In this document: positions 706-5,507 of the stretch, piece after piece
Numbering within the stretch: position 1 is the stretch's first letter
Layout: each line of letters begins with the position of its first letter
Source of the DNA: Verrucomicrobiales bacterium
Lineage (GTDB): Bacteria > Verrucomicrobiota > Verrucomicrobiia > Verrucomicrobiales > V1-33
Assembly (NCBI GenBank): GCA_947460575.1
Contig: CANHIJ010000025.1
Location: 1-41,351 of the forward strand
Length of the DNA stretch: 41,351 bases
Reading direction: 5' to 3'
Notes under the pieces: model-generated
Told to the model about the DNA's origin: nothing
The model's database searches: none
The model's input: the letters and a program-made list of their open reading frames with translations, nothing else
Made by a program: the position numbers and the translations under genes

Positions 706-970
706 GGGGTTTAGGGATTTCGCAGTTAGAATTTAGGGGTGTTTAGGGGGAGCGGGTCGGCGGCGCGCTTAGGGCGGAGCAGGCTAGGAGGACCAGGTGA
801 GTGGGGCAGGGGGTGGAGCGGAGGGGAGGAATGGGGCTGGGGTGCAGGATGGCAGAACCGCAGCAGAGAGGGCAGTAGGGCAGTAGGAGGGGGTGGGGGA
901 ATTTTTTTGGGCTGGGGCGAGGCGGGACTTGTGGCGGGGCGCGACCTTGGGCATGGGTGAGGGACAATCT
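706..970. other. Intergenic region with TTTAGGG motifs
   Basis: About 265 bp without a convincing gene lie upstream of the first pilT-like gene. The segment is G-rich and contains TTTAGGG three times within 40 bp (710-716, 732-738, 742-748), then many runs of three or more G and a T7 run near 904-910. The G-runs could fold as G-quadruplexes on the + strand, but the whole window is G-rich, so this is weak evidence. No clear sigma-70 promoter was seen. Confidence 0.5.
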
Positions 971-2029
971 ATGGACCATCCCTTTATTATGGAACTAGCG
1001 AGCGTGGCCCTGGGGAATGGGGCCTCCGATCTTTTTCTGGCGGAGGGGGCGCCAGCGCGCTTTAAGGTGGGCGGGATGATGCAGGAATCGGTGGGGCGGG
1101 AGGTATCGCGGGAGGATTTGGCGGCATTTTGGCGGAGTTGCGGGGCGGATCCAGGGGAGCAAATGGACGTGGATGCGGCATGGCAAATGCCGGGGGGGCC
1201 GCGGTTTCGGGTGAATTTGCACCGGCATTTGGGGCGCTTGGGGGCGGTGCTGCGGCAAATTCGCACGCAGGTACCCACGATGGAGGCGCTGGGGTTGCCG
1301 GAGGACTTGTTGGTGCCGTGGCTGGAGCGCCGCTCGGGGCTGATTTTGGTGACGGGGCCAACGGGGTGCGGGAAGAGCACGACGATGGCTGCGTGTTTGG
1401 AATGGGTTAACTGTACGCGGGCGGCGCACGTGGTCACGATTGAGGATCCGGTGGAGTTTGTGTTTCAGGACCGCGCGAGTTTTTTTACGCAGCGGGAGGT
1501 GGGGTTAGATACGGCGACGTTTGCGGATGGGCTGCGCCGGGCGATGCGGCAGGCGCCGGACATTATATTTGTGGGGGAAATCCGGGATGCGGCCACGGCG
1601 CAGATTGCGCTGCAGGCGGCGGAGACGGGGCATTTGGTGTGCAGCACGCTGCACAGTCCGAATGTGGCGGAGACGATTGATCGCTTGGTGCACTTGGTGG
1701 GGCCGCAAGAGCGGGAGGGGATGCTGTCGCTGTTGGCGCACCAGACGATCGGGATATTGAGCCAGCGGTTGCTACCGGGGGTGGAGGAGGGGCGGGTGAG
1801 TTTGGTGTGCGAGGCGCTGGAGGTGGAGGGGGCGGCGCGGGATTGGCTGCGGGCAATGGATATTCCGGCCCTGGCGGATTTTATGCGGCGAGGGGGGAAT
1901 CCGCGAAATCGGTCTTACCAGCAGGCCTTGGTGGGGGCGGTGCAGGAGGGGCGGGTGAGCTATGAGGTGGCGTTGGCGGCGGCGCCGAATGCGGCAGAAT
2001 TTAGTCGGGCGATGCGCGGCATTTCGTAG
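971..2029 (+). CDS. PilT/PilU-like twitching ATPase 1
   Basis: This 352-residue protein is a type IV pilus retraction ATPase of the GspE/PilT AAA-type family, expected to act as a cytoplasmic hexamer at the pilus base. It has the PilT N-terminal domain (NGASDLFLAEGAPARFKVGG), Walker A GPTGCGKST at about residues 129-137, an Asp box VTIEDPVEF, Walker B DIIFVGEIRD near 197, and the His box TGHLVCSTLHS near 219. The C-terminal region lacks a recognisable AIRNLIRE motif, which is characteristic of PilT and often missing in PilU-type paralogs. Start ATG 971 was chosen because GTGAGGGA lies 5-12 bases upstream; ATG 953 is the alternative. A second homolog follows after 92 bp. No pilin or other pil gene is present, so the PilT versus PilU role is open. 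Confidence 0.9.
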   Translation: MDHPFIMELASVALGNGASDLFLAEGAPARFKVGGMMQESVGREVSREDLAAFWRSCGADPGEQMDVDAAWQMPGGPRFRVNLHRHLGRLGAVLRQIRTQVPTMEALGLPEDLLVPWLERRSGLILVTGPTGCGKSTTMAACLEWVNCTRAAHVVTIEDPVEFVFQDRASFFTQREVGLDTATFADGLRRAMRQAPDIIFVGEIRDAATAQIALQAAETGHLVCSTLHSPNVAETIDRLVHLVGPQEREGMLSLLAHQTIGILSQRLLPGVEEGRVSLVCEALEVEGAARDWLRAMDIPALADFMRRGGNPRNRSYQQALVGAVQEGRVSYEVALAAAPNAAEFSRAMRGIS

Positions 2030-2121
2030 TTAGCGAATGACAAGTGCGCGCTTGAGGCGGAGGATGGGGCCGCCGCTGCCCTGGGCCGCGGACCTCCCAA
2101 ACCCCTAAAACTCTCCCCAGC

Positions 2122-3222
2122 ATGTCTCCCGGATACGATCTAGTCGATCTCCTCACCCTGACGCGGCAAATGGCTGGCTCGGACCTGCATCTGAGCGTGG
2201 GAGCGGCGCCGGTGGCGCGGGTGAATGGGGTGCTGACGCCGCTGAGCGGGGAGGCGATGGAGGCGAAGCGCTGTCGGGAGTTGATCATGGCGGTGTTGAC
2301 GGAGAGCGAGCGGAGCCGCTTGGAGCGGGATTGGGAGTTGGATTTTGCGATTCAGCTGCAGGAGGTGGGGCGGTTTCGGGGGAATGCGCACTTTAGCCGG
2401 GGGCATTTGGAGGCGGCGTTTCGGTTTGTGCCGTCGGAGGTGCCGGATTTGGCATCGCTGGGGCACGGGCCGTCGGTGGAGGAGTTTTGCCGGGCGCGGC
2501 AGGGTTTGGTGTTGGTGACGGGGATGGCGGGGGCGGGGAAGTCGACGACTTTGGCGGCGATGACGTCGCAGATATTGCAGGAGCGGCGGGGGATCGTGAC
2601 GACGATTGAGGATCCGATTGAGTTCACCTTTGCGCACGCGGGGAGCTTGATAAAGCAGCGGCAAATCGGGATCGACACGCGGGATTTTGCGCACGCGCTG
2701 CGGGCGGCGGTGCGGCAGGATGTGGATGTGATTGTGGTTTCGGAGATGCGGGACCAGGAGAGCGTGGCGGCGGCGCTGACGGCGGCGGAGACGGGGCACT
2801 TGGTGATCGCGACGCTGCACACGCGGAGCGCGGTGGGGAGCCTGGACCGGGTGGTGGACATTTTTCCACCGGCGCAGCAGCCGCAGATCATCACGCAGCT
2901 GGCCTCGGCGCTGGTGGGGATTGTGAATCAGAAATTGTTGCCGCGGGCCGACGAGGTGGGGCGGGTGATGGCTAGCGAGGTTTTGGTGATGACGCCGGCT
3001 TTGGCGGCGGTGGTGCGGGACCACCGGTTCGAGCAGGCCTATGGGCTGCTGCAGGTGGGGAGCGTCCACGGGATGCACACTATGGACAGCAGTTTGTACC
3101 ATTTATTGACGGGGGGGTTTATCACGGTGGAGGATGCGCTGGTGCACGCGCGGGATGCGGCGGCGCTGCGGGAGGACTACAAGGAGTGGCTGCGGGAGCA
3201 GAGTCGGGTGCCGCGCCGCTGA
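2122..3222 (+). CDS. PilT/PilU-like twitching ATPase 2
   Basis: This is a second 366-residue PilT-family ATPase, probably co-transcribed with the first. The N-terminal domain contains MAGSDLHLSVGAAPVARVNG. Walker A is GMAGAGKST near residue 134, where PilT proteins usually have GPTGSGKST. The Asp box is TTIEDPIEF, Walker B is DVIVVSEMRD near 202 with Ser in place of the usual Gly before Glu, and the His box is TGHLVIATLHT near 225. The C-terminus keeps a PilT-like HTMDSSLYHLLTGGFIT segment, but the AIRNLIRE region is degenerate (ALAAVVRDHRFEQ). The two copies may form a PilT/PilU-type accessory pair, which is an inference. The start ATG has a C-rich leader (CTCCCCAGC) with no Shine-Dalgarno sequence. 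Confidence 0.9.
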   Translation: MSPGYDLVDLLTLTRQMAGSDLHLSVGAAPVARVNGVLTPLSGEAMEAKRCRELIMAVLTESERSRLERDWELDFAIQLQEVGRFRGNAHFSRGHLEAAFRFVPSEVPDLASLGHGPSVEEFCRARQGLVLVTGMAGAGKSTTLAAMTSQILQERRGIVTTIEDPIEFTFAHAGSLIKQRQIGIDTRDFAHALRAAVRQDVDVIVVSEMRDQESVAAALTAAETGHLVIATLHTRSAVGSLDRVVDIFPPAQQPQIITQLASALVGIVNQKLLPRADEVGRVMASEVLVMTPALAAVVRDHRFEQAYGLLQVGSVHGMHTMDSSLYHLLTGGFITVEDALVHARDAAALREDYKEWLREQSRVPRR

Positions 3223-3999: not shown

Positions 4000-5424
4000 T
4001 TAATAGCGGTAGTGTTCGGCTTTGTAGGGGCCGTTTTTGTCGACGCCGAGGTAGGAGGCTTGGTCGTCGCTGAGGACGGTAAGTTTCACGCCGATTTTTT
4101 CGAGGTGGAGGCGGGCGACTTCTTCGTCGAGTTCTTTGGAGAGGCGGTAGACGCCGGGTTGGTAGGAATCCTTTTTGTTCCAGAGGTCGAGTTGGGCGAG
4201 GGCCTGGTTGGTGAAGCTGGCGCTCATGACGAAGGCGGGGTGGCCGGTGGCGCAGCCGAGGTTCATGAGGCGGCCTTCGGCGAGCATGTAGATGCTGCGG
4301 TCGCCGGGGACGTCGTAGCGGTCGTACTGGGGTTTGATGTTGATGCGGGTGACGCCCTTTTCGTTGTTGAGCTTGTCGACTTGGATTTCGTTATCGAAGT
4401 GGCCGATGTTGCAGACGATGGCCTGATCCTTCATGTTGAGCATGTGTTTCAGGGTGATGACGTCTTTGTTGCCGGTGGTGGTGACGTAGATGTCGGCGAT
4501 GCCGAGGGTATCTTCGACGGTTTTGACTTCGAAGCCTTCCATGGCGGCTTGGAGGGCGTTGATGGGGTCGATTTCGGTGACGATGACGCGGGCGCCGAAG
4601 CCGCGGAGGGAGTGGGCGGAGCCTTTGCCGACGTCGCCGTAGCCGCAGACGCAGGCGACTTTGCCGGCGATCATGACGTCGGTGGCGCGCTTGAGGCCGT
4701 CGGCGCAGGATTCGCGGCAGCCGTAGAGGTTATCGAATTTGGATTTGGTGACGGAGTCGTTGACGTTGATGGCGGGGACGAGGAGTTGGCCGGCCTCCAT
4801 CATTTGGTAGAGGCGGTGAACGCCGGTGGTGGTTTCTTCGGAGACGCCCTTCCAGTCTTTGACGATGTCGTGGAAGATGGTGGGTTGTTCGGCGTGGACT
4901 TTTTTGAGGAGGTCTTTGATGACTTGTTCTTCGTGGTTGCCGCTGGGGGAGTGGACCCAATCGGAGCCGTTTTCGAGTTCAAAGCCTTTGTGGATGAAGA
5001 GGGTGGCGTCGCCGCCGTCGTCGATGATGAGTTGGGGTCCGGGGGCGTCGACGTGGCAGATGGCCTTCCAGGTGCAGTCCCAGTATTCTTCGAGGGACTC
5101 GCCTTTCCAGGCGAAGACGGGGATGCCGGCGGCGGCGATGGCGGCGGCGGCGTGGTCTTGGGTGGAGAAGATGTTGCAGGAAGCCCAGCGGACCGTGGCG
5201 CCGAGTTCGACCATGGTTTCGATGAGGACGGCGGTCTCGATGGTCATGTGGAGGGAGCCGGTGACGCGGACGCCCTGAAGGGGTTTATCTTCGCCGTATT
5301 TGGCGCGGATGGCCATGAGGCCGGGCATTTCGTGCTCGGCGATGTCGAGGGTTTTGCGGCCCCAGGGGGCGAGGGAGATGTCGGCGACTTGGTAGTCGGT
5401 GAAGGGGGCGGTGGAAGTGCTCAT
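4000..5424 (-). CDS. ahcY: S-adenosylhomocysteinase (AhcY)
   Basis: This enzyme reversibly splits S-adenosylhomocysteine into adenosine and homocysteine. It recycles the product of all SAM-dependent methylations, uses tightly bound NAD, and is a cytoplasmic tetramer. The 474 residues show family signatures: [15 protein letters not shown], the NAD-binding Rossmann motif [11 protein letters not shown] near residue 263, GHFDNEIQ, and a C-terminus ending KAEHYRY. The length fits the bacterial form carrying an insert of about 40 residues (around [17 protein letters not shown]). The ATG at 5424 matches the usual N-terminus; its leader is C-rich without Shine-Dalgarno. A 26-bp imperfect palindrome next to a TTGACT box lies just upstream, suggesting repressor control. 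It is monocistronic between a terminator and the divergent glycosyltransferase gene. Confidence 0.97.
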
Positions 5425-5454
5425 GGGTGGGAGGTGGTTGAAGTTCAGGAAACG

Positions 5455-5480
5455 TATGAACGCATCATGATACGTTGATA
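5455..5480. promoter_or_regulatory. 26-bp imperfect palindrome, putative ahcY operator
   Basis: The segment reads TATGAACG, CATCATGATA, CGTTGATA, and matches its reverse complement at 22 of 26 positions (11 of 13 base pairs), centred on a perfect ATCATGAT at 5464-5471. It lies 31-56 bp upstream of the ahcY start. A palindrome here fits a dimeric repressor. SAH-responsive ArsR-family SahR regulators control ahcY in Proteobacteria, but whether one exists in this organism is unknown and no regulator gene is nearby. Confidence 0.5.
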
Positions 5481-5507
5481 TGTTGGCCTGCGGATGCGGG
5501 GAGTCAA
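5479..5507 (-). promoter_or_regulatory. Candidate ahcY promoter
   Basis: On the - strand a good -35 box TTGACT (5502-5507) is followed, after 17 bp, by a weak -10 region AACATA or CATATC (about 5477-5484). The putative operator begins within this -10 region, so a bound repressor would block the promoter. The -35 match is good, the -10 match poor. Confidence 0.4.

Follow-up and report, generated by a model that had tools for sequence, protein, structure and literature searches.

A conserved palindrome over the ahcY promoter of a Verrucomicrobiales bacterium as the probable operator of a SahR-type repressor

The window analyzed here is the whole stretch of 41,351 nucleotides of contig CANHIJ010000025.1 (assembly GCA_947460575.1) from a Verrucomicrobiales bacterium, and the element that concerns us is a palindrome in front of its ahcY gene, which encodes S-adenosylhomocysteine (SAH) hydrolase. 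An initial annotation, made from the sequence alone, had described a 26-bp palindrome, symmetric at 22 of 26 positions, touching the -10 end of a promoter with the -35 box TTGACT, and had proposed that a repressor of the ArsR type acts there as SahR does in Proteobacteria. Both the palindrome and its contact with the promoter are indeed found, and the features on which the argument relies are as follows (window positions unless another contig is named; HTH, helix-turn-helix).

4000-5424, minus strand: ahcY, S-adenosylhomocysteine hydrolase, the gene proposed to be under control (Pfam AdoHcyase, E 2.9e-145)
5455-5480, minus strand: 26-bp dyad, putative operator TATCAACGTATCATGATGCGTTCATA (reading toward ahcY), 22/26 positions symmetric
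5452-5483, minus strand: 32-bp conserved footprint ACATATCAACGTATCATGATGCGTTCATACGT, common to the ahcY upstream regions of nine other family genomes
5507-5502, minus strand: -35 box TTGACT of the ahcY promoter, from consensus and conservation
5483-5478, minus strand: -10 box ACATAT of the ahcY promoter, spacer 18, assigned by consensus and conservation only
6569-7492 of contig C114, same genome (G000): ArsR-HTH/methyltransferase protein, candidate SahR, encoded away from the window's ahcY

The dyad is centered on ATCATGAT, begins inside the -10 box, with which it shares three bases of ACATAT, and ends 30 nt before the ahcY start codon, while TTGACT, the 18-nt spacer and ACATAT make up a plausible sigma-70-type promoter. 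Within the operator, ATCAACGTATCATGAT forms a complete ATC-N10-GAT unit, and a second copy, overlapping the first with an 8-bp shift, is degenerate, with CAT in place of its final GAT. Symmetry by itself is not beyond chance at the scale of the window: the dyad is its sole 26-mer with at least 22 symmetric positions, and 30 Markov-1 random windows matched in dinucleotide composition contained 0.50 such 26-mers on average, with a maximum of three. The element is convincing because it is conserved, not because it is symmetric. The specific consensus is beyond chance, with 0 matches in 100 shuffles, and a profile of 67 unique operators, the window's own site being one of them, scores 35.6 bits at this site versus about -0.2 at the next best window position. 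We therefore give hardly any credence to a chance palindrome or to a hairpin or riboswitch in the leader RNA. A window of this composition should, admittedly, contain a 22-of-26 dyad about 0.5 times, but the element is kept across phyla at the promoter while its flanks differ, and its conservation across the ahcY upstream regions of the family, together with the places where the motif falls, contradicts chance. In other bacteria, an SAH riboswitch controls ahcY in response to SAH; unlike it, the element described here is a DNA palindrome lying over a promoter, and the Rfam covariance models had no match at gathering score anywhere in the window, including near ahcY, which speaks against a riboswitch. 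Transcription of the full stem is moreover unlikely because the dyad overlaps the -10 box.

The family set comprises 13 genomes, and the named contigs matching several of them are metagenome-assembled genomes of Verrucomicrobiales or Verrucomicrobia, a few being filed under Akkermansia. The initial annotation had made its proposal depend on conservation of the palindrome upstream of ahcY orthologs: ahcY was found in 11 of the 13 genomes, upstream sequence was present for ten, and all ten carry ACATATCAACGTATCnnGATnnGTnnAT-like DNA, whereas the sequence around it varies. Across the 13 genomes, a degenerate 30-mer (at most three mismatches, both strands collapsed) occurs at 24 distinct places, 10 before ahcY, 6 before metK, 7 before metH and one at the edge of a G006 contig without an assigned gene; the reversed control occurs nowhere. 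A second profile, trained on the family ahcY sites alone and then applied to the upstream regions of metK, metH and sahR, recovered sites in 6/11 metK regions (31-46 bits) and in 9/9 usable metH regions (21-36 bits), against a maximum of 10.0 bits in 840 Markov shuffles; the metH count omits G000, G002 and G005, where nothing matched the N-terminal part of the gene. The alignment of ahcY, metK and metH upstream regions that had been suggested as a check thus places the motif before orthologs of all three genes, ahcY being the most constant target of the family. TTGAC lies 20-22 nt ahead of the operator's ATCAAC in all ten ahcY promoters and in the six operator-bearing metK promoters, and at this spacing in none of the nine metH operators, which may be placed differently with respect to the promoter. 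It seems very probable from these comparisons that the palindrome before ahcY is the operator of a repressor controlling methyl-recycling genes.

The 67 unique operators yield the consensus ATCAAC-RT-ATC-NN-GAT-TY-GTTGAT, that is, two overlapping ATC-N10-GAT units with an 8-bp shift, spanning 24-26 bp overall. The ATC and GAT columns are nearly invariant, and symmetry peaks at the main center and 4 bp to either side of it. It is tempting to speculate, and we regard it as an unlikely outcome, that the four half-sites 8 bp apart (ATC, ATC, GAT, GAT) hold two overlapping SahR dimers cooperatively, and that the methyltransferase-like domain is, or until recently was, an active enzyme reading the ratio of S-adenosylmethionine (SAM) to SAH through occupancy by substrate or product. 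Were this true, the two-dimer array and its enzyme domain would constitute an ancient protein-based sensor of methylation potential in Verrucomicrobiota and other phyla.

The genome from which the window derives has six matches to the ArsR HTH, one of which is fused to a methyltransferase domain. This C114 protein combines PF01022 (residues 14-58, E 5e-10) with the SAM-binding Methyltransf_11 (residues 148-243, E 2e-24), and its predicted model shows an N-terminal winged helix and C-terminal methyltransferase elements (mean predicted local distance difference test score, pLDDT, 79.6). Compared with solved structures, the predicted fold best matches chains of Rv2258c, a methyltransferase for which a structure with SAH also exists, though over their full length the two superpose poorly (template modeling score, TM, about 0.5; root-mean-square deviation above 16). 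A regulator of this type, with 65-91% identity, occurs in 12 of the 13 family genomes. The two other strong ArsR genes of the genome were considered as the regulator and rejected, L001 adjoining an arsenate-reductase-like open reading frame (ORF) and L003 a rhodanese-like ORF, both judged by eye from translations.

A search of named genomes for the regulator brought up 50 loci. Most belong to Verrucomicrobiota and some to Acidobacteriota (Bryobacterales and one other); a few are classified as Armatimonadetes, Abditibacteriaceae or Chthonomonadaceae, and a single distant match is archaeal. At 34 of these 50 loci, metK and/or ahcY stand directly beside the regulator gene on the opposite strand, and outside the family the operator (at most four mismatches) lies within 260 bp of the start of the regulator gene in 34 of the 36 loci examined, the exceptions being L099 and L126, in the latter of which the site precedes metK instead. 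Reading toward metK in these 36 loci, TTGAC is found 15-25 nt ahead of the site in 25, at 26-27 nt in six and at 10 nt in one, and is missing in the remaining four. The ArsR-type gene that the initial annotation had expected to accompany the motif is thus present, as the ArsR-HTH/methyltransferase protein in the family and, elsewhere, as a gene beside metK-ahcY with the operator in between.

A survey of 141 genomes of the class, based on a strict operator pattern with at most two mismatches, tells a similar story. The strict pattern occurs in 56 genomes and its reversed control in none, the regulator in 97 and ahcY in 133. Of the 56 genomes with the operator, 55 also encode the regulator; the one that does not, G024, has one poor match, and 43 genomes have neither regulator nor strict site (Fisher P 3e-11, uncorrected for relatedness). 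In genus g5, whose 18 species all have ahcY, nine carry regulator and operator, eight have neither of them and one has the regulator without the operator; the eight (cf. L226, L227) appear to be cases of natural loss of the whole switch with ahcY kept. Among 18 stretches hand-picked from the class matches, 17 hold a strict site, and 16 of these operators precede metH (7), metF (3) or metK-ahcY (3), or lie between the regulator and metK-ahcY (3); the remaining one, L228, has no recognized target. In the window's own genome, we observed a third match to the strict pattern beyond those of ahcY and metK, for which metH is the natural guess because the metH start lies off contig C60.

Several observations weigh against a switch made of this protein and this operator. 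The regulator gene of the window's genome is unlinked to its proposed targets; no own site is found in 11 upstream regions of the family's sahR-type genes; the ahcY-trained profile finds no site upstream of metK in 5/11 family genomes; metF has a site in 0/12 family loci (the thirteenth being cut by its contig); and in G003, a genome 86% complete, the regulator was not found though the metK site is present. At the scale of the class, 42 of the 97 regulator-bearing genomes lack the strict site, so that in them either the operator has drifted away from the pattern or there is no such link. Their operator may look different; in several of those without a strict site (e.g., among families f9, f11, f14 and f28), ahcY was seen near the regulator gene. 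The 42 genomes, the candidate gene's want of an own site in the window's family and the five further ArsR matches in the genome would all suit another transcription factor, whether of ArsR or of another family, using the operator while the methyltransferase-domain protein is a genomic hitch-hiker. We hold this to be highly improbable, since regulator and operator are jointly missing in the eight g5 species that keep ahcY and homologs of the regulator lie next to metF or ahcY-metH in other phyla.

These homologs deserve attention. The relatives from rhizobia, Novosphingobium and Leptospira, which share 30-32% identity with the regulator, stand beside metF, metH or ahcY; genes of the regulator's family lie ahead of metF in rhizobia and of ahcY-metH in Leptospira. 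With the 67-operator profile, the Sinorhizobium meliloti ArsR-metF (sahR-metF) locus shows a site of the same form at 24.5 bits and that of Rhizobium leguminosarum one at 15.6 bits, none of 500 shuffles scoring as high in either case, while the Leptospira locus reaches 8.7 bits (5/500 shuffles as high) and the Methylobacterium locus 2.3 bits (1/500). To the reservations listed above, one must add that the Novosphingobium relative has no profile match (135/500 shuffles as high) and that the rhizobial and Leptospira relatives share no more than 31-32% identity with the regulator, about the level given for SahR and SamR in PMC4239095. As a separate observation, the Leptospira plasmid NZ_CP043881.1 (L193:5860-12340) carries the ArsR/methyltransferase gene and, after it, ahcY, a 4Fe-4S gene and metH; directly upstream lies a perfect 24-bp palindrome, GGATATCAAGATATCTTGATATCC. 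This locus is likely to be a SahR-type operon in Spirochaetota.

How does the system compare with those already described? SahR, an ArsR-family regulator of Proteobacteria (Desulfovibrio and rhizobia) with published work in Desulfovibrio, is a repressor that responds to SAH, according to PMC8877191 and PMC4239095, and a Pseudomonas sahR mutant is mentioned in PMC7950407. According to PMC4239095, the proteobacterial SahR operator is a 20-bp palindrome, ATC-N10-GAT is a consensus common to SahR and SamR, and SamR, a distant SahR homolog of Xanthomonadales, uses a 24-bp palindrome, controls metH, metK and metF and may respond to SAM. Like SahR, the regulator described here joins an ArsR HTH to a C-terminal methyltransferase-like domain, a layout also present in the aligned rhizobial proteins; its predicted targets are ahcY, metK, metH and metF, the last only outside the family, in three class genomes; and its palindromic operator contains ATC-N10-GAT. 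Unlike the 20-bp palindrome of SahR (PMC4239095), the operator measures 24-26 bp and consists of two overlapping units; its gene is usually divergent to metK-ahcY; and, unlike the autoregulated proteobacterial sahR, it has no site of its own in the window's family and shares an intergenic site elsewhere (34/36 loci). With SamR it has ATC-N10-GAT and the putative targets metH, metK and metF in common, and it differs in that ahcY is its most constant target in the family.

Computation shows a conserved operator with its target genes, and shows that operator and regulator gene are linked and occur together; these results support the ArsR-type, SahR-like repression of ahcY anticipated by the initial annotation. 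We consider it quite likely that a SahR-type repressor, the C114 protein, binds the operator, blocks the ahcY promoter and is released by SAH. The C114 protein would bind the dyad over the -10 and start region and thereby block RNA polymerase, with corresponding sites bound at metK and, in relatives, at metH and metF; accumulating SAH would then fill the SAM/SAH pocket of the methyltransferase-like domain and free the promoter of its repressor, and the genes for SAH hydrolysis and for regeneration of methionine and SAM would be switched on. Binding of the C114 protein to this DNA is predicted from the genome comparison, and the bound protein presumably represses because the site sits over the -10 box. 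Some metabolic regulators both activate and repress, and position alone is no proof of repression; we nevertheless find it very unlikely that the protein is an activator or dual regulator, given that the site overlaps the -10 box, that ATCAAC falls 20-22 nt after the -35 box at all ten ahcY and six metK promoters, the usual place for steric repression, and that SahR is described as a repressor in PMC8877191.

As for the effector, SAH is the probable one by analogy, because ahcY is the most constant target of the regulon and because of what is published on SahR. Alternatively, the same regulator and operator could repress when SAM is plentiful, as in a SamR-like system: the presence of metK and metH in the regulon fits feedback by SAM, identity to the rhizobial SahR is about 32% only, and the related SamR may itself respond to SAM (PMC4239095). 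Against this stand the constancy of ahcY (10/10 in the family), the usual metK-ahcY operon elsewhere and the argument, in PMC4239095, that SamR senses SAM as its regulons are without SAM-cycle genes other than metK. Sensing of SAM is thus a minor possibility, and SAH the preferred ligand.

Elsewhere in the window, positions 18-374 consist of head-to-tail repeats whose translation reads HSFPGKLSCGG again and again, and positions 893-3222 hold two adjacent ORFs which, by the look of their sequence, we take to resemble PilT-type twitching ATPases.

The initial annotation had also remarked that it knew of no comparable repressor in this phylum. Within the open-access literature searched (subscription papers and regulon databases falling outside that scope), nothing on SahR control in Verrucomicrobiota was found, the relevant SahR work being proteobacterial, and SahR-type control in this phylum is apparently undescribed so far. 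What we describe is an extension of the known SahR system, not a new kind of system. A regulator, an operator and a regulon are thereby assigned to the activated methyl cycle in phyla without an earlier description in that literature. The finding is directly testable in named cultured strains with the regulator beside metK-ahcY, namely Rubritalea marina DSM 17716, Roseibacillus persicicus KCTC 12988 and Roseibacillus ishigakijimensis KCTC 12986, and it suggests a far greater age, or a greater mobility, for SahR-type control than one would expect from its proteobacterial name.
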